A stretch of 64,000 nucleotides of DNA, taken from IMG/VR virus record IMGVR_UViG_3300048507_000465, positions 18,017 to 82,016 of that record; one strand, given 5' to 3'. This document shows positions 13,211-63,865 of this stretch, one piece after another. This stretch comes from a virus. The notes beneath the pieces are model-generated. The model saw nothing but the letters and a program-made list of their open reading frames with translations, made no database searches and was not told the origin of the DNA. Position 1 is the first letter of the stretch. The number at the start of each line of letters is the position of its first letter. The position numbers and the translations under genes were made by a program.

Positions 13211-14962
13211 ATGCCCTTTTTATTACAAAATGAATATGATGTTACAAATCCGATAACAGGTGTTTCAAATCATGTATATGAATACTTAGATGTTGATACC
13301 AGAGCTGTCGTTAAAACTACAGAAAAAAAGACTGATGTAGTTGAAGAAGATCCTGCTGAAGCAGAGGAACCAACACCCGCAGGTACTACAACCTTTATTG
13401 AAGATGGAGAGGGTGCCGGTAGCTCAATATATGGGGATGCCGCCACAGGTTCTAGGACATATAAAATTAAAGATCCTAAAAAAGAAATAAACGCCGGAGA
13501 TGGTGTTAAATCTTTATATAATAAATGGTCTTTACACTCATATAAGAATACTGCCAAAGGAACTCAAAGAGGTAAGAATGATTATCAAAACTATAACAAA
13601 ACTGTTATGGATGGTAATGACGATAATATATTAAATCCTACTGCTAGAAGAATTGTACAATATGCTTCGGATAATGGTGGTTTAGGATATAATTATAGCT
13701 TTAGTGATTTTATACAAACAGAACACTACGGCCAAATTTCAAACGAATACTTAATTACATTAAGAAGATTTGCATATCCTATACAGGATGATATTATGAA
13801 TGTACAGGGGCTGGATAGTAAAGGCAATCCTATAGATTTAGGTCAGCCCGATTTAGCTAGGTGTGTAACCTGGATGTCGCCTGCATTAGGTAATGATATG
13901 AAAGAAATCTTAAAGTTTGGTACTGAATTTCCATGGAAAGAAGTAGAGTCGGAAATTCAAAAAGTAGCTGGTAATGCTAAAAAAAGAGGTAAGCTAGGAG
14001 AAATGATGGATGGGTCCTCATTAGGTAGAGCAGTTGAAGCAGGTCTTAATGGGTATAGTGCAGCTCAAGCTGAAACTATTAGAGATAAAGGTGCTGGTTT
14101 TGACCCAATGGGAGAAACTTACCCAAATAAAGTATTTGGTCCTTTAAATGTTATTAAGAAAGTTTTATCAAGAGAGCAAGGCTTAAACTTTAATAGTGAA
14201 TTTAACTTAACGTTTCACTATGATTTAAGAGGTTTCTTTAATACATCACCAAAGGTCGCATTCATGGATACACTGTCGAACGTTTTAGCATTGACATATA
14301 ATAATGCTCCTTTCTGGGGAGGTGCTGTTAGATATACTGGAAGTGGCTCTGTAGGTAAACCTTTTGGCGATTTTGACAAATTAAAAAACGGAGATTATGC
14401 AGGGTTTATGGGTAGTTTAGCTACTCAATTAAAATCTTCAATGGGAGCTGCATTTGATGATGTAGGTAAAGCTGCTAAAGGACTTATGAATGGTAAGGGT
14501 ATTAATGCATTAGGTGACTCTAAAATTATGGATAATATTATTGGAGGTGGACTAATGAAATTAATGAATGGTCCACAAGGTGGTGCTGTAATTAATGCAT
14601 TCTTAACTGGAGATCCAACAGGGCAATGGCATATGACTGTAGGTAATCCTATGAATCCTATTATGGTTTGTGGAAATTTAGCTTTACAATCTTCTAGTGT
14701 AGAATTTGAAGGACCTTTAGGTTATGAAGGATTCCCAAGTAAAATGAAAGTTACGGTTGCTTTAAAACCTGCAAGACCTAGGGATAAAGGTGAAATTGAA
14801 AGTATGTTTAATGCTGGTAGGGGTAGAGTTTATTTACAACCAGAAGTTGAAGGTTCAGTAGATCTAGACAAAATTATGGATGTATCTGCTTATGGAAATG
14901 CAGATAGAGGTAAACTAACTAAAGGTTTTGCAACAAAATTATCAGACTTTAACGCAGGCTAA
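13211..14962 (+). CDS. Baseplate/tail structural protein (probable)
   Basis: The protein has 583 residues. The N-terminal 100 residues are acidic and low-complexity. The middle holds FNLTFHYDLRGFFNTSPKVA and VLALTYNNAPFWGGAVRY, followed by a Gly/Ala/Met-rich stretch. A C-terminal beta domain contains GNPMNPIMVCGNLALQSSSV and GPLGYEGFPSKMKVTVALK. Similar C-terminal segments occur in myovirus baseplate proteins near the tube-baseplate junction. This match is from memory of family patterns, so the subtype is uncertain. It ends in a TAATG overlap with the gp53-like gene, supporting a shared baseplate operon. Confidence 0.6.
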   Translation: MPFLLQNEYDVTNPITGVSNHVYEYLDVDTRAVVKTTEKKTDVVEEDPAEAEEPTPAGTTTFIEDGEGAGSSIYGDAATGSRTYKIKDPKKEINAGDGVKSLYNKWSLHSYKNTAKGTQRGKNDYQNYNKTVMDGNDDNILNPTARRIVQYASDNGGLGYNYSFSDFIQTEHYGQISNEYLITLRRFAYPIQDDIMNVQGLDSKGNPIDLGQPDLARCVTWMSPALGNDMKEILKFGTEFPWKEVESEIQKVAGNAKKRGKLGEMMDGSSLGRAVEAGLNGYSAAQAETIRDKGAGFDPMGETYPNKVFGPLNVIKKVLSREQGLNFNSEFNLTFHYDLRGFFNTSPKVAFMDTLSNVLALTYNNAPFWGGAVRYTGSGSVGKPFGDFDKLKNGDYAGFMGSLATQLKSSMGAAFDDVGKAAKGLMNGKGINALGDSKIMDNIIGGGLMKLMNGPQGGAVINAFLTGDPTGQWHMTVGNPMNPIMVCGNLALQSSSVEFEGPLGYEGFPSKMKVTVALKPARPRDKGEIESMFNAGRGRVYLQPEVEGSVDLDKIMDVSAYGNADRGKLTKGFATKLSDFNAG

Positions 14963-38186: not shown

Positions 38187-41100
38187 ATGGCACAATTAAT
38201 ATTAAAAGGTACTTTACAGACTAGTGCAGCTGATGCATTTGCTAACGGCCCTAGTAATGTAACCCAACAAACTCTATATTGGGATGATAGCAATAACGCA
38301 ACATTTGGCGCAGGTACTGATTTATTTACGGATGCCGGCATGGATCCCCTTACAGATACATTTACGCCAGGAAGCAATGGTTGGTGGTATACTATAGATG
38401 GAAATAGAGCAATTCAAATTGATGGTACCGCAAACTTAGGTCGAGTTTTAGATATTGAAAACGGCCCTATAATTACTTTAAATGGGGATTCTACTGAATA
38501 TTATACAGTCGGGTCAACATGGACCGACGCAGGTGCTACTGCTACTGATGTAGAAGATGGTAATGTAACTGGTATCACTATGGCAGGCGCGACCAGCGGC
38601 GATACTTTAAATTCTACGGGAAATACTTCAATTACATATGATGTATCAGATTCAGATAATTATCCAGCTTTAACAGTAACTAGACTACTAACCGTATATT
38701 CTTACGATACATTTTCAGCATCAGCATCAACAGTTGACGAGGGTGGTACTATTATATTTACATTAAATGGTACTAATATTCCAGGTGGTACTACAATACC
38801 ATACGCTGTAACTGGTATTAGTTCTGCGGATTTATCATCAGGTTCAACTGATGGAATGTCTGGTAGTATTACGGTAGATTTTGGTACTGGTAGTTTAACT
38901 TTTACATTAAATGAAGATTTAACAACAGAGTCAGCAGAGACTTTGACCGTTACATTAGATCCACAAACACTGGGAGATTCTAATGGAGCAGATGTAGGTT
39001 CTCTTTCTGATTCAGTTACCGTTAATGATACTAGTATTGGAAACGACCCTCCTACTATAATTGTAGATCCATTGTTAGTTAGTGTTACTAATGATATTAA
39101 TGATGGAAACTTAGAGTGGGTATCTATTAATTTAGGTAATAATATAAGTGGTAATACCGACAACGACCCATTAACTTATACAATATTAGACCCGGGAAAT
39201 TTTAACGGAAGTTTAGCAGAATCACAGGGAGGTAGTGTCATTTCACAATGGCCACATGCTATTGCTAATAATGGTAGTACTATATGGTATACTCCAGGTA
39301 ATGTATTTAATCAAGGCTCTGAAAGTTTTGATTACAAGGTAGATGATGGAACTAATGATGCTACGGGAACTGTAACCGTAACAGTTTCTCCACCAGTAAA
39401 TACAGCTCCGACTGCGGAAAATTATACAGGAATCTCCCTTGATGGAGAAATATCAAATACCGCAACTAGATCTTATGAGTTTCAAAGAAAGCACTCAGTT
39501 ACACCTTCTGCTCAAATAGGAGAAACATATAGCTTTCAATGGGTAGATGATTCAAATGGTACTAATGTATTAACAATTGGCCAGTTAAATAACTCATTAA
39601 GCCACGGTACAGTTGCTATTACAGCAGGTGATGGTACCGGAGAGTGGTTTACGTATACACTTAATAATAATGTAGATTTAAATCCTAGTAGCTCTCAACT
39701 TACAGAGACTTTTTATTATCAAATAACTGAAACTAATACTACGGAGTCTTATTCTGCTAGGGGTCAAATAGATCTAAGCATACAACCTCCTGGAAATACA
39801 CCACCCCAATTTACCACACCTGGTAGTTCTCCACATTCAGTGAGTGTTGATCAGTTTAGTTTTGTAAATATTAATATAGCTGTAACAGATGGAGATGGAG
39901 ATAATATTACATTTAATGCTACACAACCACCAAGTGGGCAGGGTGCTGTAGATATTTCTAATTTAGGTATAAACGGTACTATAAAATATACACCTGGGTC
40001 ATATCAGGGTAATACTACATTTACCCTTACGGCAAACGATCCATACGGTGGAAGTGCTTCTATGCTGTTTAATGTTACAGTAAATGCTAGTCCATATGTT
40101 GCAGTAAGAATTAGCCCATGGGGAAGTTCATCTTCAATTGCTTGTAACGATTCTCGAGGCTCTCAAAATTATTATTTAAACACAGCACAAGCTGTAACGT
40201 TAAATGAATTAACAATAGGAGATTCTATTTACGTAAGTACAGCCCTTAGTGATACGTGGGCGCCTATTGACGCTGCATTTGGTTGGGTTTCAGTTGCAGA
40301 AGCAACCGACTTAGGAAATGTTATATCATATAAGATTGATACTAATGGTATTATTGAGGAAGTGGTTGCATGTCAAGTTACTGGAGGTCAAGCGTGGCCA
40401 ATAGAAATAGGTTCTTCGTCATCGGTAAATGCATATTGTAATTTGCAGTCGTTTCAAACAGGTATAGTTTATCAAAATATTAGTGAATTTAAACCAAATG
40501 GTGTTACGCCTTTTACGCTAGGTGATGTTGTTGAGGCTGGCGGTCAGTTATTTAATTCAGAATATTATGCTAATGCGTATGCAGGTCAGACGGCTCCGGC
40601 AAATATTGCACTAGGAGATGGCCTTTACAACTTTGTTAGCTCGTATGGTAAATATTATTCTTATCAAAATGGAGTTTGGCAAATAAACACAGATACTAGT
40701 TCGCCTTATTACAATACGACTACATTTGGTTGTCCACCTGAAGTTACATGGGAGGTTAAAAGTTTAACTGTAAAATGGTTACCAGAACAACCTACAGAAA
40801 TAGGGTATATTTGTAATGCTACTTCAGCTGAGCTTGAGGATATTACAATTTACTATAAAGTTCCACAGGGAATAACATATACTTTAAAGGATTTAGCTAT
40901 AAATCAAAAGAGAATTTTTACTAGCGAATCAGCCGCTTTATCAAACGATTATAGTCAACTATTTCAATCAGCGGTTTTACTATATTTTGGTAAGTATTTT
41001 ATTTGGAATAATGATGATGAAACAGGTTATACGGGAGCTGTACAATGGTATGGTTTTAATTCAATTACTAATGAGATTGAACTTGCTAACATTGGAAGTT

Positions 41101-44100
41101 CGGGAGGTGTTTGTTTATCTCCAGGTAACCAAGATTACATTAGAGAAGAACATACTGGGCTTTCTTATGAAATAGGTAGTTCAACTGGAACTAGACCTAA
41201 TGCGTATTATGCTTTTTATGGATGTGAAGTGCAATTAGATGCTGGTATTCCAGGAGGAGATTCATACTGGCCTTTATATGTAATAGACGGATTTCATACT
41301 GCTGATTTAAATTCTACGTCATTTGTTAAAGATTTTATTAGTACAGTAGGCGATACTGTTACACATATTAAGTCTAGTGAATGTATGACTTTAAAGCATA
41401 AAGTATGGGGGCTTAATATACAAGACGCAATTAATCAGCTAGAAGATAATATATCAGTATATAGACAGGATAGGATTAGGGCAATTGCAATAAACCCACA
41501 AGATATAGGTATAGGGAGTCAGTCTATTATTTCATATGGATATAGTGATTGTGGAGGATGTCTTACAAATCCAGAAACTGTAAATACATATCAATTTCCT
41601 ATAGTAGAAGATTTTGAAATATTAAATAGGACAATACCTAATTTTAATTTAGAGACTAATTATGAATTAGATAACGTATCTAAACCGTTATTAAGAACAA
41701 ATCCAAAATTATCAACTAATGCTAAATTAGTAGCCAACCTCAACGATCAAGTTTTTATTGAAAGTATTGACGCTACTAAGGAGTTGGCTTCAGTTTCATA
41801 TAAAAGGTGGGAAGTTAATAAAGATGGACAGTATTCATATGACTTAAAAAAGTTTTATGAATTTAGTTATACAACATCTGACATTATGTATGCTACTAAA
41901 GTAGAATACTCAGATTATGCAGTACAAGAGACCTTTGATAAACAAATTGAAGAACTATATCAATACGGTACTAAATATAATTACTCTAAACTACACGATG
42001 AAGACTATAGAATTTTCGCACCAATTTGGTTAGATAAAGCTATACCTAGAAAATTTGTAATATTTAGAGTTAGTGATCCTACATCTTCTGTTGATTTTGA
42101 TAATAGGAGTATGTTTAATAATATGCAGGATTTATTAAAAAATTCTGAAATAATAAAAACATTTGATTTAACTAAAGATTCTACATTGGGTTCTTATATA
42201 AGGAATCATATGGAGGATGAGGGCTTCCCAAAGACTCCAATTACTTTTAACTTTGACGAAAATGAAAAAAGTACGTTTAACGGTATTGATTTAAAAAAGG
42301 GTGGTTTTACTAAGAAGGGTGAGTTTTTACATGATGATTTTGTAAAAGCAGATGCGCCTCTTATTTCAAGTAATCAACTAATAACTGATGGGTTTGAAAG
42401 AAATAATATAGCATGTGCTAATTTATTAAACTTAGAGTTTTTATTCAATGATGATTTAGTATCGGATTATGGTATTAATAGATATTTTGGAGTGTACGTT
42501 AATGATATAGATTCTGGATATGGGTCTATTTCTACTTCTGAAAACGGTAATATAGTTTTTGATATATTAAATAGTAATATTAATAATGATAGCTGGTCTG
42601 CTATTCCATCATTTAAACATATATCTCAGACTCCAACTATTGGGTATGTTTCGATAAGTGATGAATACTATAAAATTTCTTCTAGAAGTAATTATATTCC
42701 TAAAAATTTAAACGTTGTAGTTGAAGATTCAGGTAACAAGATACCTAATGAAATTAAAATAGCTCCAAACGGTAATTCTATTGATATTACTAGAAACAAA
42801 GAAGCTGGGTTTGATTTTATTAAAATGGAACTTATATCAACTCCTAATACTAACGATAAGTTTACTATATTTTCTTCTAAAGAATCTTCGTATGCTATTA
42901 AATTTGTTAGACTTGCGGAGGGTGAAAACTGGAGTATTTATTTTAATGAGTATGGTGTACAAAAGGTAGTTCCATTCCAGACTGGTTCTAGTTTATTAAC
43001 TACATTTATTAACATTAAAAATGAATTTTTAAATTTAGGATTTTCTAATATTAAAATAGATTGGGACTTAGATAAAAGTACATTATATGTAACAGAGTTA
43101 CAGTCTACCCTCGGGGATTTAGAGCTTTATATTAAATCAACAGATCAATCTTATACTAGCTTAGCAAATGCAGTTGCAATACAAACCTCTTTTAACTTAG
43201 ATAACTCAACATATATTGCTTCAGATCAAATTAGTGCTGGTAATTTTAGTAGTACTACATATTCTAGTAATGGTACATTAGGCCAGATAACTAAAGCATT
43301 AGTATCTTGTATTACAAATTCTGCGCAAACTGATTTTAACGTATTACATGAAACAGGGTCAAATATATTTTATATTAAATCTAAAGTAAAGGGCTACAAG
43401 CTTTTACAAAGTGGAGTTTTAGTTCCTAAAGAAAACTCTATAGATTTTTTAAATATAGAAAATTTAGATACTAATTCTTTATTAAATCTTCACGATGAGA
43501 GCCTAAATTCAATAGCAGTAACTAATAATATTTATTACATGAGCGGTGGTAACTCTGCTAATAAGTCAGTTTATGTTTCTTTAGATTCTGTTGCGGATGT
43601 AAATATAGGTGATTATATAGAGACTAAAAAATTAAACGTATATAATAAAATTATAGATATTGTAGACGACGTCGATAGAATTCCAACAACATTTAAAAGA
43701 TTAATACTAGAACGTGAAAACGATTTAGATTCTGGAGAAATTAAAATATATGCGGATAATCTTGCTAGAATAGGTTTATTTTCAGCGTTTGATATACATG
43801 ATATGAATTTTGATTTTTATGATACTTCAAACTCAGATCTTAAAGAGTTAAAATATGAAAATTCTGCTACTATTAATTATATACCAGAGGAGAGTACTTC
43901 AGGAACTGAAGATGAAGTTGCAGTATTTAGTAATGATTATGATTTAACACCTAGTAATTATTTTACAGGTATTAGTGATGTATTACCGGAGGAGCTTGCA
44001 GATCAATATAATGAAATAAAACTTTATACTGAGTATGATAGATTAAATGAAAATAATCTTAAAGAGTTTGCTTTAAATTCTAGAGTAGTTCCTAATATTA

Positions 44101-46481
44101 ATAAATGGGTATTAAAAGATACTTTAACTGTAAGAGAACAACCATATTATTTAAATGCCAATGAAGCATTTGGTAGAACTAATTTTGCGCCTGACTTTTC
44201 TAACCCAGGTAGAGATAGATTAGGAATGACACATGAGTGGTTTTATTTAGATAAAATACCTAAATACTTACAATATAATCAGTTAAATGATACTTTTAGT
44301 TATTTAAACTTTAATGAAGATTTTGATTTACAACCTATTCATTTTAAAAGTACATCTTTTGATTATTTTGATAGATTTATGATAAGCGACGGGTTTGAAA
44401 TTAAAGATAACTATGGTATAGTTTCTTTTATTAAAACAAACCTTAAAAAGAAATATACTGTTGTAGATGGCGGTAATGATACATCATTTGCAAGTACTAT
44501 ATTTAAAGGTTTAAGAGTTAATTTTAAAAGTAGAAAAGAATTTGAAAATATAACATCCTCCGATTTTATTAAAAATTCAGAATTTAATGGGTATAAGTTT
44601 AGTACTATTGTTAAAGTTAAGACGGGTCAAGCGTCTAATGATATTTCATACGAGATTATTCAAAATAAAGCTTTTAATTTTGTAGTATTTTTTATTACAG
44701 TATCCTTAGACGATTTATGGTCTAATAATTCTATTAATAGAAAACTATTGTATGAAATGAATCATAGCCTTGTTTGGACCGGAAATCCTGGGTTTGAAGT
44801 TTTTCAATATTCTGATGTTAAAATCTCCGGAGCTATGAATTTAAATAGTTTAAATACAACAGATCCGACTGCAATAGATTATTTAGTATTAACAGGTTTA
44901 ACACATGATGATGGGTCAATACCTCAATTTATAGAACAAATAAATACTGATGATGATAATCAATATGGAGTATTAAAAGTAACTATTAATGCAGATTCAG
45001 GTCCAAATAATATATACTTACCCATAGCTTCAGTAAACGATCAAGATGAGCTAGTTCTTTCTGGAGTTCCGATGGATAGCGAAACAGGTGGGAATCCAGT
45101 ACCTTTGTATAATTTACCGGACTACTTACAATTAGAAGCTGAGTATAACTATTTAAAGGGTGGTAAAAATGCTTTTAAAAATATTCTAGATAGTTTATCA
45201 ATATCTAATGTATATCAGTTGTTAAAACAAAATGATGGTCAGATAGTTTATACTACAATAGAAGAGGACGGAACTTCTTTAAATAATAGATTTCAAATAG
45301 AATTCGAAGATGGTAATGAGGTAATAAAAGAATCGTTCTTGCTTACAACCACAGATACCGATAAACCAAAATCATTTAAATTATCTAAGGGTAATATAGG
45401 TTTTGAATTAATAGCCGGTGATATTTACTATCCGTTTTTAGTTAGACATAACGGTGATTACACTGTGGATACTAAGCCTGTAATTACGTTTACTGATACA
45501 TATTCACACTTTAAAACTAACGATTTACAATCTACTATTAATTCATCTGAGTTAGCGTTTGAAGAGCAGATGTATAAACATTCTTTAACCGATGTTGAAG
45601 AAATTAATTTGGCTAGAGATTATTATAGAAGATATAATAGGTGTGGTACTGCTTTTAATCTAGGGTTTGTACAAGATGATGGAACTCATGATAATAATTG
45701 GGGTATAATTAAAAACCATTTTTATAGAAAGGTAAATGAAATAAATACATCAGGTGTTACAAAACTATCAACTTCTACTGAGAAACTACCTTTGTATCCT
45801 CTAATTGGTGAAATAGCTATAGATAAAAAAGACGTTAATGTATTTAGATCTTCATGGGATAAAAATTATTATACCAGAGCTCTATCTGGCGGCGGCTCAG
45901 AATTAGTTCCAGGTACATTTGAAACTAAAGAAGAAAAATCATATTTAGGCTCTACTGTAATGAAACCTAAAGATTCATATAGCTTAATTAATTTTAACGT
46001 TGATTATGTAGGTAGCCAAGAATCACAAGATAAAATATTATTAAATGGAAATAATAAAGGAGATATTGTTGTTTTTGAAAATAAAGAAAACATATACATT
46101 GATTTTTATATTGATTCTTTAATTAAGAAGACTTTATCTAATGATGGTATTTTAAATTCTATTTCAAGGTATGTCACTGCTGAAAATTCAGCTGGAGATA
46201 AATCTACTATTAAAGATGATGTTGAGTTTTATATTACTAAGAATCTAGTTAATTTGTTTACAGTAAATTCTATTAAATTATATACTAGCAGAATTAAGGG
46301 TATTAAATCTGAGATACTTACTACTGCTAATATTGATACTTTAGATGATGGTGGGTTTGAATTAGATAAAAACTTTACATTTAAGCAACATAAACAAAAG
46401 CCCCTTAATTTTAGATTGATATATAATAAAAGATTAGGTTACTCTTATAGAATTAGACCTATGGTAAAAATAAAGTCATAA
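38187..46481 (+). CDS. Giant multidomain fibre/adhesin protein (2764 aa)
   Basis: The N-terminal 700 residues are a chain of surface domains. A short adaptor is followed by a DUF5011-like fold (about 93-171, with TEYYTVGSTWTDAGATATDV). A Calx-beta-like domain (about 173-285) contains STVDEGGTIIFTLNG. Cadherin/VCBS-like repeats follow, with GSESFDYKVDDGTNDATG and ITVAVTDGDGDNITFN-type strands. The remainder, from about residue 1100, is a long phage-specific region, beginning near RTNPKLSTNAKLVANLNDQV, with many aromatic, beta-rich stretches. It is most likely the long tail fibre or a baseplate-linked adhesin. The mosaic layout suggests surface domains grafted onto a conserved phage core. Confidence 0.75.
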   Translation: MAQLILKGTLQTSAADAFANGPSNVTQQTLYWDDSNNATFGAGTDLFTDAGMDPLTDTFTPGSNGWWYTIDGNRAIQIDGTANLGRVLDIENGPIITLNGDSTEYYTVGSTWTDAGATATDVEDGNVTGITMAGATSGDTLNSTGNTSITYDVSDSDNYPALTVTRLLTVYSYDTFSASASTVDEGGTIIFTLNGTNIPGGTTIPYAVTGISSADLSSGSTDGMSGSITVDFGTGSLTFTLNEDLTTESAETLTVTLDPQTLGDSNGADVGSLSDSVTVNDTSIGNDPPTIIVDPLLVSVTNDINDGNLEWVSINLGNNISGNTDNDPLTYTILDPGNFNGSLAESQGGSVISQWPHAIANNGSTIWYTPGNVFNQGSESFDYKVDDGTNDATGTVTVTVSPPVNTAPTAENYTGISLDGEISNTATRSYEFQRKHSVTPSAQIGETYSFQWVDDSNGTNVLTIGQLNNSLSHGTVAITAGDGTGEWFTYTLNNNVDLNPSSSQLTETFYYQITETNTTESYSARGQIDLSIQPPGNTPPQFTTPGSSPHSVSVDQFSFVNINIAVTDGDGDNITFNATQPPSGQGAVDISNLGINGTIKYTPGSYQGNTTFTLTANDPYGGSASMLFNVTVNASPYVAVRISPWGSSSSIACNDSRGSQNYYLNTAQAVTLNELTIGDSIYVSTALSDTWAPIDAAFGWVSVAEATDLGNVISYKIDTNGIIEEVVACQVTGGQAWPIEIGSSSSVNAYCNLQSFQTGIVYQNISEFKPNGVTPFTLGDVVEAGGQLFNSEYYANAYAGQTAPANIALGDGLYNFVSSYGKYYSYQNGVWQINTDTSSPYYNTTTFGCPPEVTWEVKSLTVKWLPEQPTEIGYICNATSAELEDITIYYKVPQGITYTLKDLAINQKRIFTSESAALSNDYSQLFQSAVLLYFGKYFIWNNDDETGYTGAVQWYGFNSITNEIELANIGSSGGVCLSPGNQDYIREEHTGLSYEIGSSTGTRPNAYYAFYGCEVQLDAGIPGGDSYWPLYVIDGFHTADLNSTSFVKDFISTVGDTVTHIKSSECMTLKHKVWGLNIQDAINQLEDNISVYRQDRIRAIAINPQDIGIGSQSIISYGYSDCGGCLTNPETVNTYQFPIVEDFEILNRTIPNFNLETNYELDNVSKPLLRTNPKLSTNAKLVANLNDQVFIESIDATKELASVSYKRWEVNKDGQYSYDLKKFYEFSYTTSDIMYATKVEYSDYAVQETFDKQIEELYQYGTKYNYSKLHDEDYRIFAPIWLDKAIPRKFVIFRVSDPTSSVDFDNRSMFNNMQDLLKNSEIIKTFDLTKDSTLGSYIRNHMEDEGFPKTPITFNFDENEKSTFNGIDLKKGGFTKKGEFLHDDFVKADAPLISSNQLITDGFERNNIACANLLNLEFLFNDDLVSDYGINRYFGVYVNDIDSGYGSISTSENGNIVFDILNSNINNDSWSAIPSFKHISQTPTIGYVSISDEYYKISSRSNYIPKNLNVVVEDSGNKIPNEIKIAPNGNSIDITRNKEAGFDFIKMELISTPNTNDKFTIFSSKESSYAIKFVRLAEGENWSIYFNEYGVQKVVPFQTGSSLLTTFINIKNEFLNLGFSNIKIDWDLDKSTLYVTELQSTLGDLELYIKSTDQSYTSLANAVAIQTSFNLDNSTYIASDQISAGNFSSTTYSSNGTLGQITKALVSCITNSAQTDFNVLHETGSNIFYIKSKVKGYKLLQSGVLVPKENSIDFLNIENLDTNSLLNLHDESLNSIAVTNNIYYMSGGNSANKSVYVSLDSVADVNIGDYIETKKLNVYNKIIDIVDDVDRIPTTFKRLILERENDLDSGEIKIYADNLARIGLFSAFDIHDMNFDFYDTSNSDLKELKYENSATINYIPEESTSGTEDEVAVFSNDYDLTPSNYFTGISDVLPEELADQYNEIKLYTEYDRLNENNLKEFALNSRVVPNINKWVLKDTLTVREQPYYLNANEAFGRTNFAPDFSNPGRDRLGMTHEWFYLDKIPKYLQYNQLNDTFSYLNFNEDFDLQPIHFKSTSFDYFDRFMISDGFEIKDNYGIVSFIKTNLKKKYTVVDGGNDTSFASTIFKGLRVNFKSRKEFENITSSDFIKNSEFNGYKFSTIVKVKTGQASNDISYEIIQNKAFNFVVFFITVSLDDLWSNNSINRKLLYEMNHSLVWTGNPGFEVFQYSDVKISGAMNLNSLNTTDPTAIDYLVLTGLTHDDGSIPQFIEQINTDDDNQYGVLKVTINADSGPNNIYLPIASVNDQDELVLSGVPMDSETGGNPVPLYNLPDYLQLEAEYNYLKGGKNAFKNILDSLSISNVYQLLKQNDGQIVYTTIEEDGTSLNNRFQIEFEDGNEVIKESFLLTTTDTDKPKSFKLSKGNIGFELIAGDIYYPFLVRHNGDYTVDTKPVITFTDTYSHFKTNDLQSTINSSELAFEEQMYKHSLTDVEEINLARDYYRRYNRCGTAFNLGFVQDDGTHDNNWGIIKNHFYRKVNEINTSGVTKLSTSTEKLPLYPLIGEIAIDKKDVNVFRSSWDKNYYTRALSGGGSELVPGTFETKEEKSYLGSTVMKPKDSYSLINFNVDYVGSQESQDKILLNGNNKGDIVVFENKENIYIDFYIDSLIKKTLSNDGILNSISRYVTAENSAGDKSTIKDDVEFYITKNLVNLFTVNSIKLYTSRIKGIKSEILTTANIDTLDDGGFELDKNFTFKQHKQKPLNFRLIYNKRLGYSYRIRPMVKIKS
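46418..46428 (+). promoter_or_regulatory. Late-promoter-like element GATATATAATA inside coding sequence
   Basis: An exact copy of the 11-mer lies within the last codons of the giant fibre gene (encoding LIYNK), 54 nt before the ATG of the collagen-like fibre gene. It is the only exact copy I found inside a coding region and could drive the downstream genes separately. Confidence 0.5.
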
Positions 46482-47310: not shown

Positions 47311-48117
47311 ATGAAGGATAAAATAAAAAATATATTATCAAATAGGACTCTGGTAACTTTTGTTGCGGGAGCCCTTCTATGTTTATTATTTCTTAAACAA
47401 TGCAATAGTATTGAGAACTTAAAACAAGATGTAAAATTAGCACAAGAAGATGCTGGTAGACAACTCAATAACTTTAAGGCTGCTCAAGACTCAGTTACAA
47501 TACTAAGAAATGATAATGGGGATCAGCTTGCTCAAATCAGATCTTTTGAATTTGATTTATCAAAACTAGAATCTAGCCAAGCTAAGTTAACTAAAAAGTA
47601 TAAAAAAGCGTTAGCACTTAATGATGACTTAAAAGACGTTAATTCATTAATATCTGCTAATTTAGAAATTACAGATAGCTTAGATGTAAGTACTACAACT
47701 GAGGCTATTGATACTTCAACTACTAAAGTTACATTTAAATCTACTGAAGATTTTGGTGGTGGTAACTCTAGAAAACTAACAGGGTTTTCAACTTTTAAAT
47801 ATGAATTTGAAAAATTTAAAGTACTGGAAACTAAATTTGAATTAACACAAACTCTAAGCCTAATGGCCGCGATTGAAAATGTGGATGGTGCTGATAGATT
47901 AAAGCTGTCAACAAGCTATCCGGGATTAGAGATTAAAGATATTGAAAATATCAACCTAGTTAATACCAGGTTAAATAGAAAATCAGAAAAGAAAGCTGGT
48001 TGGGGAATTGGTGTAGGAATAGGTTATGGTATTAATTTAAATAATAATCAAGTGATTAGTACGGGCCCTTCGATAGGGGTCGGCTTATATTGGTCACCAA
48101 AATTTTTAAGATTTTAA
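47311..48117 (+). CDS. Membrane-anchored coiled-coil protein, candidate spanin
   Basis: The 268-residue protein has an N-terminal signal-anchor (TFVAGALLCLLFLKQC, about residues 16-31) followed by a charged coiled coil (about 33-115). The middle is beta-rich. The final 40 residues contain GWGIGVGIGYGINLNNN and end PSIGVGLYWSPKFLRF, terminating in Phe. A C-terminal aromatic ending with alternating strands resembles outer-membrane beta signals. Inner anchor, periplasmic coiled coil and outer-membrane-type end together suggest a spanin-like bridge for lysis. There is no lipobox (LKQC does not fit). No lysin is adjacent, so this is a hypothesis. Confidence 0.5.
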   Translation: MKDKIKNILSNRTLVTFVAGALLCLLFLKQCNSIENLKQDVKLAQEDAGRQLNNFKAAQDSVTILRNDNGDQLAQIRSFEFDLSKLESSQAKLTKKYKKALALNDDLKDVNSLISANLEITDSLDVSTTTEAIDTSTTKVTFKSTEDFGGGNSRKLTGFSTFKYEFEKFKVLETKFELTQTLSLMAAIENVDGADRLKLSTSYPGLEIKDIENINLVNTRLNRKSEKKAGWGIGVGIGYGINLNNNQVISTGPSIGVGLYWSPKFLRF

Positions 48118-50187
48118 ATGGCACAAGCATCAAGATATTATAGAATAGACCAAGATATTTTACTTGAGTTTATCTACCATGACCAAAGCGATCCTGAAAA
48201 ATATCGCATTGAGGTAGATGATAATGGTAGTGAAGTAATGTTTTTAGATACAGTGGACCAAGATCCATTTTCACCTAGACATTTACTTAATGAATTAGGT
48301 AGCGCAGTCGTCAACTTTGATGTTACTAGTGTATCTGGTTATATTGCAGTTGAAAATTTTGCGGGCAGGACTTTATTACTAGAGAGTGGTAAAACATATA
48401 AATTTGACTTAAGTGCTTTAGCTAATCCTGCTGATTTTTCAATTACTGGTAATTTAGGAATATACAACTTTTCTGCAGTAACAAATATTGGTGAATTTAC
48501 ACCAAGTACTAATGGTAAAATAGAGTATGAATATCCTGGATTAATAGGCGGTAAAATAATTATTGATAATAGGGCTAATCCTCTTTTTGCATCCCCAGAT
48601 GAAGCTACGGGAAATGATATTAATCAAACTATCGGAAGATACCATGCTGTAAAAGCTCCTGGAAACGATAATACAAAATATGCACTTTTAGGTTATGACT
48701 CTACTGGTGCATATGAAATGCATAACTTTATTAATAATACATCAGAGTGGTTAGGTGGTAATGAAGCAGATCTATTAAATTATCAAACTGAAGCTACGGC
48801 TAATATTAATTGGGTTTTATATGATTCGGTTAAATTACACTTAAGATCCGGATTTAGTTTTGATTCAAGAGGATACGAAGGGTTTTTATTCGAAATACTT
48901 TCAGAAAGAAATACTACAGTTAAAAACTTTTTAACTCAACTAGTTTATTTAAATACTAGTAACTATGAGTTTTCTAATCCCAAACCTTTTATTTTAGGAG
49001 AGACTTTATGGTCTAAATTTATTAATCTTAAAATACCTTCTTTAGTAAATCAAAACGCAGAATTTAATGATAGGTTTTATGGTGATGGTACAATAGGTTC
49101 TAGTGATTTAAATCCACTTTCTAATTATCAAATTAGATTTAAACTTATAGATAGTTTATATAAAAGTAATGGTAAAGATTATTTTAATACTGGAGAAGAA
49201 AATATATTTACAGTTTCTAGAGAAGATGAATATGCAGATTTTACGCTTACAGTAGAAGACGCTGCAGATGGAGATTACTTTAACATATACGGTGAAAAGG
49301 ATAATTCAATAAATGCATTCGAGGCTTATGTTTTAAATAGGATAAGAACTTCATCAGATGATATTGTTGTAATATATGACATAGATGTATATGAACAAAT
49401 AAGTACTAGCCAAGTTAAATCTCAATCTATTACGTTTACGCAATATGAAAGTTTTAATGATCCGATAGTATTTAGACCTGTAATTAAAAACGCTGGAGTT
49501 GCTGTTAATTTTTCAATAGAAGCGACTATGAGAATTTACAACCAAACTGATAATACCCAAATTGTGAAGAGGTCTAGTTTAACAGTTAACCAAGCATCTA
49601 AATATGGTAAAAAATTATCGTCTTTAAAGATTGACAATCCTAATATATTAACTGAGGTCTATAATGTATTACCAAATTTAAGTAGCGGTAAAGTTATATC
49701 AGGTTTTATTACAGATAATCTACCTAGATCTACTAAGTTCGTACCTGCTTTCGTTGAAAGACATAATGTTATCGCAAGTACATCAAAGGTTAATTTAAAC
49801 GGAAGTGGTAATAATGATATGATAAAAGAAGTTGAAGAGTTTGAGACTAGCGACTTCGTAGAGTCTAGTGATTTATTAATAGAGGTTGCTCCCTTTGCGT
49901 CTTACTATAAATTTGTAATAGGTAAAAGAAAGAATGACGATTTTGATTTAATTTCTTTTGAAAACGCAGAGAGAATTATATTATCATTTAATGATGGAGC
50001 TACTAAATTAAAGTTTAATAATATCTACAATAAAGATATTGATACATCTAAGGGTGAAGTTTTATTTATGATTAACGAGGCTAATGCTTCTAATATTAGA
50101 GGTATGAAAACTAATTCTTTTTATATTAGTGTTGATAATGGTAAAGATGAGACTATGGTTACTAAAGGTAAATTTACTATAGGATAA
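48118..50187 (+). CDS. Large virion structural protein, unknown subtype
   Basis: The 689-residue beta-rich protein starts MAQASRYYRIDQDILLEFIY directly after the previous stop. Segments include LEYEYPGLIGGKIII-like strands and the Ig-like FADFTLTVEDAADGDYFNIY region, and the protein ends FYISVDNGKDETMVTKGKFT. It overlaps the tube-like gene by 1 nt. Neighbours and beta-rich composition point to a tail, fibre or baseplate component. No catalytic motif is visible and no T4 counterpart can be named. Confidence 0.5.
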   Translation: MAQASRYYRIDQDILLEFIYHDQSDPEKYRIEVDDNGSEVMFLDTVDQDPFSPRHLLNELGSAVVNFDVTSVSGYIAVENFAGRTLLLESGKTYKFDLSALANPADFSITGNLGIYNFSAVTNIGEFTPSTNGKIEYEYPGLIGGKIIIDNRANPLFASPDEATGNDINQTIGRYHAVKAPGNDNTKYALLGYDSTGAYEMHNFINNTSEWLGGNEADLLNYQTEATANINWVLYDSVKLHLRSGFSFDSRGYEGFLFEILSERNTTVKNFLTQLVYLNTSNYEFSNPKPFILGETLWSKFINLKIPSLVNQNAEFNDRFYGDGTIGSSDLNPLSNYQIRFKLIDSLYKSNGKDYFNTGEENIFTVSREDEYADFTLTVEDAADGDYFNIYGEKDNSINAFEAYVLNRIRTSSDDIVVIYDIDVYEQISTSQVKSQSITFTQYESFNDPIVFRPVIKNAGVAVNFSIEATMRIYNQTDNTQIVKRSSLTVNQASKYGKKLSSLKIDNPNILTEVYNVLPNLSSGKVISGFITDNLPRSTKFVPAFVERHNVIASTSKVNLNGSGNNDMIKEVEEFETSDFVESSDLLIEVAPFASYYKFVIGKRKNDDFDLISFENAERIILSFNDGATKLKFNNIYNKDIDTSKGEVLFMINEANASNIRGMKTNSFYISVDNGKDETMVTKGKFTIG

Positions 50188-50738
50188 TGATATTAAATAG
50201 TAGAAATAATGCGTATGACTTTAGGTTTCCTAGAAAGTTTATTCCAACTGAAGTTGCTGAAAAATATTCAAAGTATTTAAATAAAGTACCTGGTGCTCTT
50301 TTATCAGAACCTGTTGACTTTATTAATTATTCAATACAAGGACTTAATATCCCAGGCTTATCTTTTGATCCAATTACTCAAGCGGATAATGATGGAACTA
50401 CAAGATACCATAGAGGTGCAGTTCCAATTCAAAATACAATAACACGAGAGTTTACAGTAACTTTTCAGTTATTAGATGGATTTATTAATTATTGGATTAT
50501 GATGGACACTCTACTTTATTATTATGCTAGGACAACTAAAGAGCCTTATATCAATCCTATGACTTTAAGGATTTTAGATGCGGAAGGTAGTTCAGTAGCC
50601 TATATGGAATTTAGTGGTATTATCATGAATTCAATAAACGAATTAAACTTAAATATGGCAGAAAACGTATCTGATTTTAGTACGTTTGAATGTACATTTT
50701 TCTATAATAAATTAGATTTAAGATTAGAAATAGATTAA
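50187..50738 (+). CDS. Tail-tube-like structural protein (probable)
   Basis: The 183-residue protein has the length and strand pattern of contractile-tail tube proteins (T4 gp19 type): EFTVTFQLLDGFINYWIMMD, then a MDTLLYYYARTT helix and MTLRILDAEGSSVAYMEFSG. Near the end is NVSDFSTFECTFFYNKLDLR. gp19 is 163 residues. It could instead be a tube-initiator or minor tube protein, since the true major tube gene often lies next to the sheath gene, which is absent here. The start overlaps the previous stop by 1 nt. Confidence 0.55.
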   Translation: MILNSRNNAYDFRFPRKFIPTEVAEKYSKYLNKVPGALLSEPVDFINYSIQGLNIPGLSFDPITQADNDGTTRYHRGAVPIQNTITREFTVTFQLLDGFINYWIMMDTLLYYYARTTKEPYINPMTLRILDAEGSSVAYMEFSGIIMNSINELNLNMAENVSDFSTFECTFFYNKLDLRLEID

Positions 50739-50753: not shown

Positions 50754-51122
50754 ATGAAAACATTTAATGATTATTTAGTTGAGCAACAATTGACTGAAAC
50801 AGATATGCAACTTTTACAAGAAGGACTTCAACAAGAGTGGACTCAAGATTTAGAAGATAAAGTTGACTTTGCTTTAGAGCAATTCGTACAACAATACCAA
50901 AAAGAAGATGGTACTTTTGAATTGGATAGATTAGAAGAAGCTTTTGTAAATGAAGGGCTTTTGGGTTCTATCTTTGGTGGTTTAGCTGGATTTGCTTTAG
51001 GTAAATCTGTTGGTAAAGTTATTGCTAAAGTACTTGGTATTCAAAAAGGTATTTTCTACGATTTATTAACATCTCGTTTAGTCGGTGCCGCGCTAGGTGC
51101 TGCAATGGGTAAAAGAATGTAA
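50754..51122 (+). CDS. Capsid-targeted prohead-core-like protein with glycine-rich membrane-active tail
   Basis: The 122-residue protein starts MKTFNDYLVEQQ, almost the T4 capsid-targeting sequence (MKTYQEFIAE). A helical acidic part (about 12-60) follows. FVNE ends at residue 67. A Gly-zipper-rich tail then begins GLLGSIFGGLAGFALGKSVG and runs to GAALGAAMGKRM (68-122). The VNE site fits the gp21-type [LIV]xE cleavage rule, so cleavage would free a 55-residue amphipathic, membrane-active-looking peptide. T4 prohead-core proteins gp67/gp68 are similarly small and cleaved to internal peptides. I infer a head-core role and possible membrane activity of the tail. Confidence 0.7.
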   Translation: MKTFNDYLVEQQLTETDMQLLQEGLQQEWTQDLEDKVDFALEQFVQQYQKEDGTFELDRLEEAFVNEGLLGSIFGGLAGFALGKSVGKVIAKVLGIQKGIFYDLLTSRLVGAALGAAMGKRM

Positions 51123-51123
51123 A

Positions 51124-51795
51124 TTGAATCTAGTTACGGTTGACTTCTCGCTTAATTCCCCTGGTATTTGTATCTGGCAATCTAGTACAAACAGGTATCA
51201 CTTTATCTCATATCTTAAACCTAATTCAGGCACAAAAGCCGAACAACGAAGGCAAGAAGAAATAGAGCAATTTCCAGACGTATCTTTAATTCATCAACCT
51301 GATTGGAAAGCTTCAGTTGGTGATTATTCTAAAAATGAGTTTGCTAAAATAATAAGATACAAGACTACAGCCGAACATCTTATTAAATTAATTACAGGGA
51401 TTACACAAACTACAGAAGATTATCATATAGCATTTGAGGGTTCGTCGTACGGATCTAAAATGGGAACTAATAATATTATTGATATGGCAGCAGGTGCAGC
51501 TATATTAAAAGAACAAATGATTTCAAAACTCGAGGTCAAAAATTTACTGACCGTTGCACCTACTACTATTAAGAAGCATGCTGGTAAAGGGAATATGAAT
51601 AAAGCTGCTCTTTGGATGTCATTCTTAAATAATGTATGTGAATCTCCTGAGTTAGCTAACAGTTCTCTACATAAATACTGTGTCTCTGAAATTGGTGAGG
51701 TTAAAAAAGTGCCGAAGCCGTTTGATGATCTAGTCGATGCTTGGTTTCTTAATCATTACCTAGCCACTAAACTTGGGGAAAATTTGCCAGACTAA
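51124..51795 (+). CDS. RuvC-like (RNase H-fold) endonuclease
   Basis: I choose a TTG start at 51124, one nt past the upstream stop, because the first conserved strand (MNLVTVDFSLNSPGICIW, Asp7) starts there. An ATG at 51097 would add nine residues in an overlap. The 223-residue protein shows the RuvC-type acidic order: TVDFS (Asp), FEGSSYG (Glu), and a late KPFDDLVDAWFLNHY pair of Asp residues. Such phage enzymes resolve Holliday junctions or branched DNA before packaging. It is unrelated in sequence to T4 endonuclease VII. It faces the minus-strand operon across a 150-nt gap. Confidence 0.75.
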   Translation: MNLVTVDFSLNSPGICIWQSSTNRYHFISYLKPNSGTKAEQRRQEEIEQFPDVSLIHQPDWKASVGDYSKNEFAKIIRYKTTAEHLIKLITGITQTTEDYHIAFEGSSYGSKMGTNNIIDMAAGAAILKEQMISKLEVKNLLTVAPTTIKKHAGKGNMNKAALWMSFLNNVCESPELANSSLHKYCVSEIGEVKKVPKPFDDLVDAWFLNHYLATKLGENLPD

Positions 51796-58908: not shown

Positions 58909-60180
58909 ATGAAGATATACACTAATTTTACAGAATTTTTAAACGAGAAACTCCAGGTAAACAACTTGGAGGATTTCGTATTTGAAGGTGGGGCAGCAGG
59001 GCATATGATGCACCCTTTCGATGACCACTCATTAACTTTTGCAGATTTCAAGACTATTGTTAAATCTTCATTACAAGGTGGTTTAGATTTCGAAGAGGCT
59101 GCAACTGAAAAGACTGATGGTCAAAACCTATTTGCAACTGTAAAAGATGGTCAAGCAATGTTTGCTAGAAATAAAGGGCAAATGATAAATCCACTAGACC
59201 TAAATGGTATCATTAAGATGTTTACTGGCCACGCGTCAAAGCTGGTTGAAGAAACATATATCTTTGCTGCTAAAGATCTAGCAGAGGCGCTCCCAGCGCT
59301 TAAGGATCAATCAATGTTCGCGAACGGATTGAATTTCGTTAATATGGAACTAATTTACTCTAAAAACCCTAATGTTATCTATTATGACAGAGATGTTATT
59401 CAATTTCATGGTATTGTAGAGACTGATGGTGAAGGTAATCAAACTGGAAAGCAAAATATTGCTACAGAACTAGTTAAAGCTCTTAAAGAATTAAAGTCAG
59501 ATGTTCAAAAGACGTTTACAATAATTCCCCCTCAAATTTTAAAGTTAGGAAAAGACATTAACTTTGATGAGAGAGTCGGCTATTACGAAAAGGCGATAAA
59601 TAAACTGAGAGATACTTATAGTCTATCAGATCAAGATGAGGTTAAAATGTATCACGAGATGTGGTGGAGAGGCCAAATCGAAGAGAACTTTGCAGACCTA
59701 GAACCGGCACATAAAGAGGGTTTACTTTTAAGATGGGCTTACTTAGATAAGAAGACACTTAAGTTAACTGCATTAAAGAAGGAATTAACACCGGAACAAA
59801 ATAAGGCTGTTAAAGATTTTGATGGTCAAAGAAATAAGAAGTATAAAGAAAACATTTTACCTTTTGAGAATCTATTTTTAGAGTTAGGTGCAGATGTTTT
59901 AAAGAACGCTTCTAATTTTGTAGCTGCTAATCCAGATGCTGAGAAAGCAAGATTACATAATCAGATTAGAACTGAAGCTGGCAAGATTAAAAAGAATGGC
60001 GACCTTACTCAAATTGAAAAGGTTGAAAAAGAACTAAAAAGACTAGAGGGAATTGGTGGTATTGAGTCGATCATCCCAACAGAAGGAGTGGTCTTTAAAT
60101 TTAAAGGAAAAACCTTTAAACTAACAGGTACTTTTGCTGCGATTAATCAGCTAATGGGTATCATAAAATACGGAAGATAA
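58909..60180 (+). CDS. Ligase-type nucleotidyltransferase with capsid-targeting-like N-terminus
   Basis: The 423-residue protein starts MKIYTNFTEFLNEKLQV, the shared head motif with a likely site after LNE. LEDFVFEGGAAG follows. Motif I of covalent nucleotidyltransferases is AATEKTDGQN (KTDG at 68-71, lysine 68 as candidate nucleotide acceptor). Motifs IV/V are seen in EGVVFKFKGKTFKLTG (392-407). The family includes RNA and DNA ligases. This branch occurs in T4-like marine phages with a similar head-type N-terminus. A packaged ligase or RNA-modifying enzyme is proposed. Substrate is unknown. Confidence 0.68.
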   Translation: MKIYTNFTEFLNEKLQVNNLEDFVFEGGAAGHMMHPFDDHSLTFADFKTIVKSSLQGGLDFEEAATEKTDGQNLFATVKDGQAMFARNKGQMINPLDLNGIIKMFTGHASKLVEETYIFAAKDLAEALPALKDQSMFANGLNFVNMELIYSKNPNVIYYDRDVIQFHGIVETDGEGNQTGKQNIATELVKALKELKSDVQKTFTIIPPQILKLGKDINFDERVGYYEKAINKLRDTYSLSDQDEVKMYHEMWWRGQIEENFADLEPAHKEGLLLRWAYLDKKTLKLTALKKELTPEQNKAVKDFDGQRNKKYKENILPFENLFLELGADVLKNASNFVAANPDAEKARLHNQIRTEAGKIKKNGDLTQIEKVEKELKRLEGIGGIESIIPTEGVVFKFKGKTFKLTGTFAAINQLMGIIKYGR

Positions 60181-62875: not shown

Positions 62876-63865
62876 ATGAAAAAATTCGAAGATTTCTTAA
62901 AAGAAGGTAAAAAGATACAAATTAAAAGAAGGTATACTGAGAACCATCCTGCTTCAACAGTAGGTAAAACTGCTAGCGTAAGAAACGCAGTACTTAAAGC
63001 AGTTAAAGATGGTGTAATCACAGAAGAAGAGTTTACTAAAATACTTTCTGAATTATCTGGTGACCATAGACAGTGGAGAACTAGAAATACAAAATATTTT
63101 AACGTTTCTGAAGAGGGTATTAAACTTTCAAAGTGGGGTCTTAGAATTTTAGCTGAATTAGATGAAGAACCTAAAGCTGCTGGGGTATTCGAAGCTACAG
63201 TAGTTATGGATGCAATGGATCCTAAATCAAAGATACTTAAAAAACTTTTAAAGAAACATAAAGTTACAATGAAAGTTTTAGATCCTAGTGGACCGAGTGG
63301 TTGGCCAGAAGTTGAGCTAACAGGTTCAAGAGAAGATCTACAATCAGTTTTAGCATCTCCTGATGGATGGGACGATCCAGAACTTGGAGAGTATATCGAA
63401 GAGTCAGCAGTTAATGAGAAGATCAAAGTTACTAAAGACGAATGGCCTTATATTGAATTTAAAGATGGTGGTAAAAAGCACAAAGTAGAATTTGATTACG
63501 AAGATATTATCGATGACCATGGTAACGAGGGTCAAGATCAATACTGGATCGGTAAAGATGAAGATGGTCAAGAATGGCAAATAGACGTTTCTGCTGATTA
63601 CAGGGGTGAAGTAATGGAGGTGTGGTTTGATACTTTAATAGTAGCAGAGAATAAGTTAGCAATTACCGAAAAATATGAAGTTATTTTTAGTGACGGTATA
63701 GTTCAAGGTAAAAAATTCAAACGCGAACAACAAGCACTTGATTTTATGAAGAAGGAGATTGCTTCTAATAAAAAACTAAGAGATATTGCAGTTTACAAAC
63801 CAGGAATGCACTCAACTACTCAAACTGAATTAGTTGTTAAATTCTGGGGAGACGGATCCTACTGA
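62876..63865 (+). CDS. Multi-module capsid-targeted protein
   Basis: The 329-residue protein starts MKKFEDFLKEGKKIQIKRRY, an [LI]xE-type site after LKE. At least three further segments follow: a helical part (about 30-97), an alpha/beta part with LLKKHKVTMKVLDPSGPSGW, then a junction EESAVNEKI (175-183). Next come a beta part with WPYIEFKDGGKKHKVEFDY, a junction ITEKYEV and a last compact module ending FWGDGSY. The linker-separated design is the same as in the proteins at 3188 and 56975. The following gene starts within 61 nt. Confidence 0.68.
   Translation: MKKFEDFLKEGKKIQIKRRYTENHPASTVGKTASVRNAVLKAVKDGVITEEEFTKILSELSGDHRQWRTRNTKYFNVSEEGIKLSKWGLRILAELDEEPKAAGVFEATVVMDAMDPKSKILKKLLKKHKVTMKVLDPSGPSGWPEVELTGSREDLQSVLASPDGWDDPELGEYIEESAVNEKIKVTKDEWPYIEFKDGGKKHKVEFDYEDIIDDHGNEGQDQYWIGKDEDGQEWQIDVSADYRGEVMEVWFDTLIVAENKLAITEKYEVIFSDGIVQGKKFKREQQALDFMKKEIASNKKLRDIAVYKPGMHSTTQTELVVKFWGDGSY

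Follow-up and report, generated by a model that had tools for sequence, protein, structure and literature searches.

A conserved 122-residue protein of large T4-like phages with a capsid-targeting-like start and a near-invariant glycine-zipper tail, a candidate internal head peptide

The window, meaning the whole 64,000-nucleotide stretch analysed here, spans positions 18017-82016 of a viral fragment of 82 kb in IMG/VR. An open reading frame (ORF) of 122 codons lies at 50754-51122 on the plus strand, where the sequence-only reading had placed it, between the genes for a tail-tube-fold protein and a RuvC-like protein. The features of the locus are as follows.

50187..50738, plus strand: upstream neighbour, a tail-tube-fold protein whose homologs match phrog_45, a family that also holds T4 gp19 and gp54
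50754..51122, plus strand: the whole ORF (122 residues), with a start like a capsid targeting sequence (CTS), an acidic half and a glycine-zipper tail
50754..50783, plus strand: residues 1-10 (MKTFNDYLVE), capsid-targeting-like, with a candidate cut after Glu10
50754..50954, plus strand: residues 1-67, putative acidic pro-region, charge -14
50814..50822, plus strand: residues 21-23 (LQE), candidate protease site (LLQE/G)
50946..50957, plus strand: residues 65-68 (VNE/G), candidate protease site
50955..51119, plus strand: residues 68-122, predicted 55-residue cationic product, near-invariant
50964..51014, plus strand: residues 71-87, first glycine zipper (G71-G75-G79-G83-G87)
51084..51110, plus strand: residues 111-119, second glycine zipper (G111-G115-G119)
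51097..51795, plus strand: downstream neighbour, a RuvC-like protein; this start was assigned mechanically, and the true start is probably near 51124

Loci were searched via the upstream tube-fold gene so as to avoid finding only what was searched for, and were regarded as testable when they held at least 1.5 kb downstream of that gene. The 122-residue gene was found at 70/70 testable IMG/VR loci, directly adjacent to the tube-fold gene in 67 and then followed by the RuvC-like gene. As all 70 loci match the tube gene of the window at 79% identity or more, the 122-residue gene is universal within that group, to which the claim is confined. The same gene order occurs in LR756500, with one extra gene ahead of the RuvC-like gene. 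In the Lak megaphages the gene sits in a different place, with the gene of the prohead protease about 4 kb away, which favours a role inside the head. Against such a role, the gene in the window is surrounded by genes for tail and replication functions and not by head genes. Other genes upstream in the window include one at 47311-48117, three genes before the ORF, for an Rz-like protein (phrog_89, E 3e-4). This protein begins with a hydrophobic anchor, and its C-terminus, made of alternating strands rich in glycine with a final Phe, resembles an outer-membrane beta signature; it could be a one-piece spanin. The gene at 38187-46481 encodes a 2764-residue fibre- or adhesin-like protein with Ig- or cadherin-like repeats in its first part.

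Scans of IMG/VR by the single protein and by alignments retrieved many relatives, and named ones were found in LR756500 (462 kb; 48% identity) and in 15 Lak megaphage genomes. In the fetched loci, 239 ORFs fit the family profile at E <1e-5, with zero weaker matches. The ORF is under purifying selection, with a median dN/dS of about 0.22 for residues 2-67 and about 0.11 for residues 68-122 (377 pairs, dS being near saturation). When the 78 proteins shared by the genomes G001 and LR756500 are ordered by identity, the whole protein comes 8th (52.9%, against 50.7% for the capsid protein); the tail alone is 73-75% identical, a figure biased upward by setting a segment against whole proteins. Based on this sequence conservation, the 122-residue protein is the product of a real ORF and a member of a new and strongly conserved family. 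Profile searches of Tenacibaculum phages PTm1 and pT24, Sphingomonas phage PAU, Chryseobacterium phage MA9V-2 and four 630-735-kb phages yielded no convincing relative, and the family therefore appears restricted to a subset of the capsid-related large phages. Weak profile matches occurred in LR745206 (E 0.4) and, for the N-terminal half, elsewhere in LR756500 (E 0.004). The bacterial genomes scanned held zero relatives, and sequence searches of Pfam, PHROG, NCBIfam and the PDB returned weak, compositional matches only. Matches to a chicken microvirus pilot protein (E 0.03) and a Mycobacterium phage tape-measure protein (E 0.06) were taken as chance.

In T4, the ten N-terminal residues of IPIII are enough for packaging, with positions 4 and 7 mattering for targeting and positions 8 and 10 for processing (PMC9026906). 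The start of the 122-residue protein (MKTFNDYLVE), set beside those of IPIII (MKTYQEFIAE) and IPI (MKTFKEF), has the key residues at positions 4 and 7 and at 8 and Glu10. The sequence-only reading had called it the closest match to the T4 targeting sequence in the window, and this holds across the 82-kb record: its BLOSUM62 score of 30 against the first 10 residues of IPIII is the highest among all called N-termini, ahead of MKKFEDFLKE at 62876 in second place, and is equalled at 0/22,598 internal positions. Among 58 relatives, position 4 is Phe in 55 and Tyr in 3 (58/58), Y7 is kept in 47/58, and L8 and E10 are each kept in 50/58, while positions 5, 6 and 9 vary. In this alignment the conserved N-terminal columns are the very ones that T4 mutations have shown to matter (4, 7, 8 and 10). 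The Lak homologs lack the MKTF..YL.E start, which weighs against an internal head protein.

A tag rule drawn from the T4 positions ([FY]xx[FYHW][LIVMFT]xE within 17 residues) matched the N-termini of 5/85 proteins in the 82-kb record (0.14-0.18 expected), 8/240 in G001 (0.7-1.1 expected) and 20/449 in LR756500 (1.8-1.9 expected); in PTm1 the count was 2/264 (0.6-1.3 expected), without clear enrichment. Because the rules and thresholds were set after the sequence was seen, such small chance figures describe fit and not formal significance. The enrichment in the record, G001 and LR756500 indicates that the tag marks a subset of the proteins of this group, and by analogy with T4 the tagged proteins would be packaged.

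The processing machinery expected for such a protein occurs in the relatives. Homologs of Peptidase_S77 (PF03420) and Gp23 (PF07068) score above the cut-off in 6/6 related genomes searched, Lak included, and the prohead protease in relatives is fused to a long acidic scaffold-like region rich in repeated [LVI]AE (L177, L179-L182, L163). Just after the catalytic region, RVNE/[SA] is invariant in 6/6 aligned protease sequences, again including Lak, which makes V-N-E a plausible site for this protease; C-terminal self-cleavage is known for the SPN3US protease. T4 gp21 cleaves after L/I-x-E, and phiKZ-like phages have different P3 residues at their cleavage sites. In the 122-residue protein, the Glu23 site has P1 Glu, a P3 of L/I/V/M and a small P1' residue in 58/58 relatives each, and the Glu10 site (YLVE) has L, I or V at P3 in all 50 relatives that possess Glu10. 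The Glu67-Gly68 pair is invariant (58/58), with P3 at position 65 being Thr in 31, Val in 15, Ile in 7 and another residue in 5. Thr (31/58) falls outside the T4 L/I-x-E rule, a point against processing in the head, and with P3 mostly other than L or I the FVNE-67 site is invariant yet less canonical than Glu10 and Glu23. A cut after FVNE-67 had been proposed from the sequence; the site is fully conserved, but it is not the sole candidate and Glu10 and Glu23 lie closer to the T4 rule. These patterns make cleavage at Glu10 and/or Glu23 likely, and they tip the balance modestly towards cleavage at Glu67, where Glu67-Gly68 might alternatively be a helix break required by the fold.

The 55-residue tail behind FVNE-67 reads as a glycine-zipper peptide, as had been claimed. 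Its glycine run 71-75-79-83-87, spaced i+4, appears in 0.8% of shuffled versions of this peptide, and these columns are kept in 57-58/58 relatives; lysines lie at 84, 88 and 92. The charge split is conserved, with medians of -14 for the first half and +6 for the tail, but it is weaker in Lak (-6 and +1), which counts against an internal head protein. The best 19-residue Kyte-Doolittle mean of the tail is 1.37, and residues 83-95 form the sole clearly amphipathic stretch (moment 0.58). Neither zipper helix attains the usual transmembrane hydrophobicity, a further point against the proposed role, and membrane activity of the tail may be regarded as plausible though standard criteria give no indication of it. 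The near-invariance of the motifs LLTSRLV and LGI-KG points to a defined oligomer or binding partner and away from a lytic peptide of generic type, and the conservation of the tail is easier to reconcile with a mechanical component than with a host-specific effector. The Pfam glycine-zipper families PF13488 and PF05433 have GxxxGxxxG in common with the tail and were rejected, as they score below the curated cut-offs (16.5 vs 25 bits and 15.0 vs 24.2 bits). AlphaFold, run with 38 and with 58 sequences, returned helical models with mean pLDDT of 60 and 64 and pTM of 0.44 and 0.54. Both place helices near 80-93 and 108-121, but with a confidence too low to tell the buried helical pair, which the sequence-only reading had named as a refutation, from a membrane hairpin. 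Foldseek searches of the PDB and BFVD with these models returned nothing below E 1, as expected from models of low confidence.

The T4 internal proteins, which are nonessential for growth on standard hosts, share several traits with the 122-residue protein. Like IPI, IPII and IPIII, it is small and has a short N-terminal targeting sequence with key positions 4, 7, 8 and 10, a predicted cut after residue 10, and a cationic mature part, the T4 proteins being described as basic. Beyond the targeting sequence, zero similarity to the three was seen. The mature parts of the T4 proteins diverge (PMC9026906), whereas the tail here is a near-invariant glycine-zipper pair, and we count this difference against an internal head protein. 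SPN3US gp47, a head protein that is essential and undergoes processing, has a predicted transmembrane helix at the N-terminus of its mature form and is thought to be ejected and then to meet the host membrane (PMC5694885). It is processed by a prohead protease, as predicted for the 122-residue protein, and in both a hydrophobic segment would open the mature part; gp47 is far larger, evolves fast and is cleaved at A-x-E, its transmembrane helix is a further difference, and the two are compared here by their described features. If the tail is membrane-active, gp47 would be a functional parallel. A weak positional parallel may also be drawn to T4, where alt, the gene of a packaged protein, lies just past gene 54 on the other strand; the present gene comes next after a tube-fold gene, one that belongs to the gp19/gp54 family.

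We propose that the 122-residue protein functions as an internal protein of the head in a T4-like phage. Its residues 1-10 would serve as a T4-type capsid targeting sequence that carries it to the core of the prohead, where a gp21-type protease would cut after Glu10, Glu23 and probably Glu67 and remove the acidic pro-region, leaving a 55-residue cationic two-helix glycine-zipper peptide inside the head. This peptide may then form a helical oligomer, exit with the DNA, insert in the host inner membrane and aid the passage of DNA or packed proteins, which is the weakest step. Packaging in the head appears highly probable. Action in the host membrane is the foremost idea for the tail yet a tentative suggestion, falling a little short of an even chance, and the whole explanation with that action included is held with the same reserve. 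The most likely account suggested by the sequence is an internal head peptide that is targeted to the core, matured by the protease and kept for a conserved mechanical function, perhaps one exerted in the host membrane when the DNA enters. We regard as speculative, and on balance unlikely, the stronger version in which the tail is a packaged, protease-released glycine-zipper hairpin that, at infection, assembles into a channel or a patch for fusion within the inner membrane of the host. It would then be a core part of a machine for DNA entry, hitherto unrecognised, in the large T4-like phages, Lak among them.

Several of these observations would also suit a protein that never touches a membrane. 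The zipper helices may form a buried soluble helical oligomer in the virion, for example at the inner portal face or in the core, with the targeting sequence and cuts merely placing and maturing the protein. Conservation on par with capsid and portal proteins, presence at every testable locus, invariant specific residues, the modelled helices (81-93 and 108-121) and a hydropathy under usual transmembrane values all agree with such a structural part, but the models are of low confidence, no structural relative was found, and a cationic glycine-rich composition is uncommon in a soluble bundle; we consider it rather unlikely. A minor core protein like T4 gp67, with a role in core assembly only and mostly lost after fragmentation, is quite improbable, even though the 122-residue protein is, like gp67 and gp68, small with several (here predicted) protease sites, and has an acidic first half. 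The T4 pair are prohead core proteins, and gp67 gets cut into small fragments. They occupy another genomic position, and in G001 a small gene at 146729-147097, between the likely portal and protease genes, already holds the gp67/68 place; hhalign of the family profile against gp67 and gp68 gave a probability of 0.2% for both, and the conserved part is the tail rather than the core-binding half. The kinship to gp67 entertained in the sequence-only reading is accordingly not borne out, while its observations stand, with a qualification as to which cleavage site fits best. Its head-core reading is supported by the targeting sequence, the T4-type machinery in relatives, the invariant Glu67-Gly68 and the acidic/cationic split.

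Two further possibilities place the tail in the membrane of the infected cell by other routes. As a prohead tether, the tail would sit on or in the inner membrane with the N-terminus on the core until the Glu67 cut frees the head at maturation, and the invariant candidate site does lie exactly at the border of the core-binding and hydrophobic halves. T4 proheads are built on the inner membrane and released after gp21 cleavage (PMC9026906, PMC9958956). Nevertheless, the tail is only moderately hydrophobic, and in T4 this role falls to the portal together with gp40 and YidC, which makes a tether improbable. A separate prohead tether is not known. A lysis or other inner-membrane protein outside the head, such as a holin-like hairpin, would account for the two glycine-rich helices and the basic C-terminus, and the Rz-like gene lies nearby; the N-terminal match would then be coincidental. 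This is very improbable, as one would not expect a holin to carry an acidic domain of 67 residues in which a targeting-type start is conserved and Glu sites are invariant, no holin family matches, and clear transmembrane segments are absent at this low hydropathy.

The passage of DNA and packed proteins across the inner membrane is less clear for contractile-tailed phages than for T7-like phages, in which internal proteins build the conduit. An internal head peptide with a conserved tag and a near-invariant glycine-zipper tail, encoded by every testable member of an uncultured group and with Lak relatives, would be a concrete candidate for this step, and one that can be tested cheaply as a peptide. 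The tag counts, such as that in LR756500 (20/449 vs about 2 expected), further suggest that tagging head cargo in the manner of T4 is a widespread habit of the group.

Other proteins with targeting-type starts were observed. In LR756500 (W01), the ORFs at 13446-14282, 180972-181730, 198758-199531 and 331856-332545 combine such an N-terminus (MKYI.EYEEF..E) with leucine-rich-repeat-like sequence and are possible packaged leucine-rich-repeat proteins. A 423-residue protein at 58909-60180 of the window continues after its targeting-type start with EGG..GHM.HPF; it occurs in three genomes, with homologs at G001:114092-115363 and LR756500:267941-269206, and searches of Pfam and PHROG gave zero matches. 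In G001:41838-42833 (L166:3838-4833), a targeting-type start precedes a protein matching the ribosomal S6 modification (RimK-like) family (phrog_2599), possibly a packaged host-takeover enzyme comparable to T4 Alt. A targeting-like start is joined to a glycine-rich hydrophobic segment in L185:2830 onward, after the capsid gene of G002, and in L081:15419-16270, beside the homolog of the 122-residue protein in LR756500.
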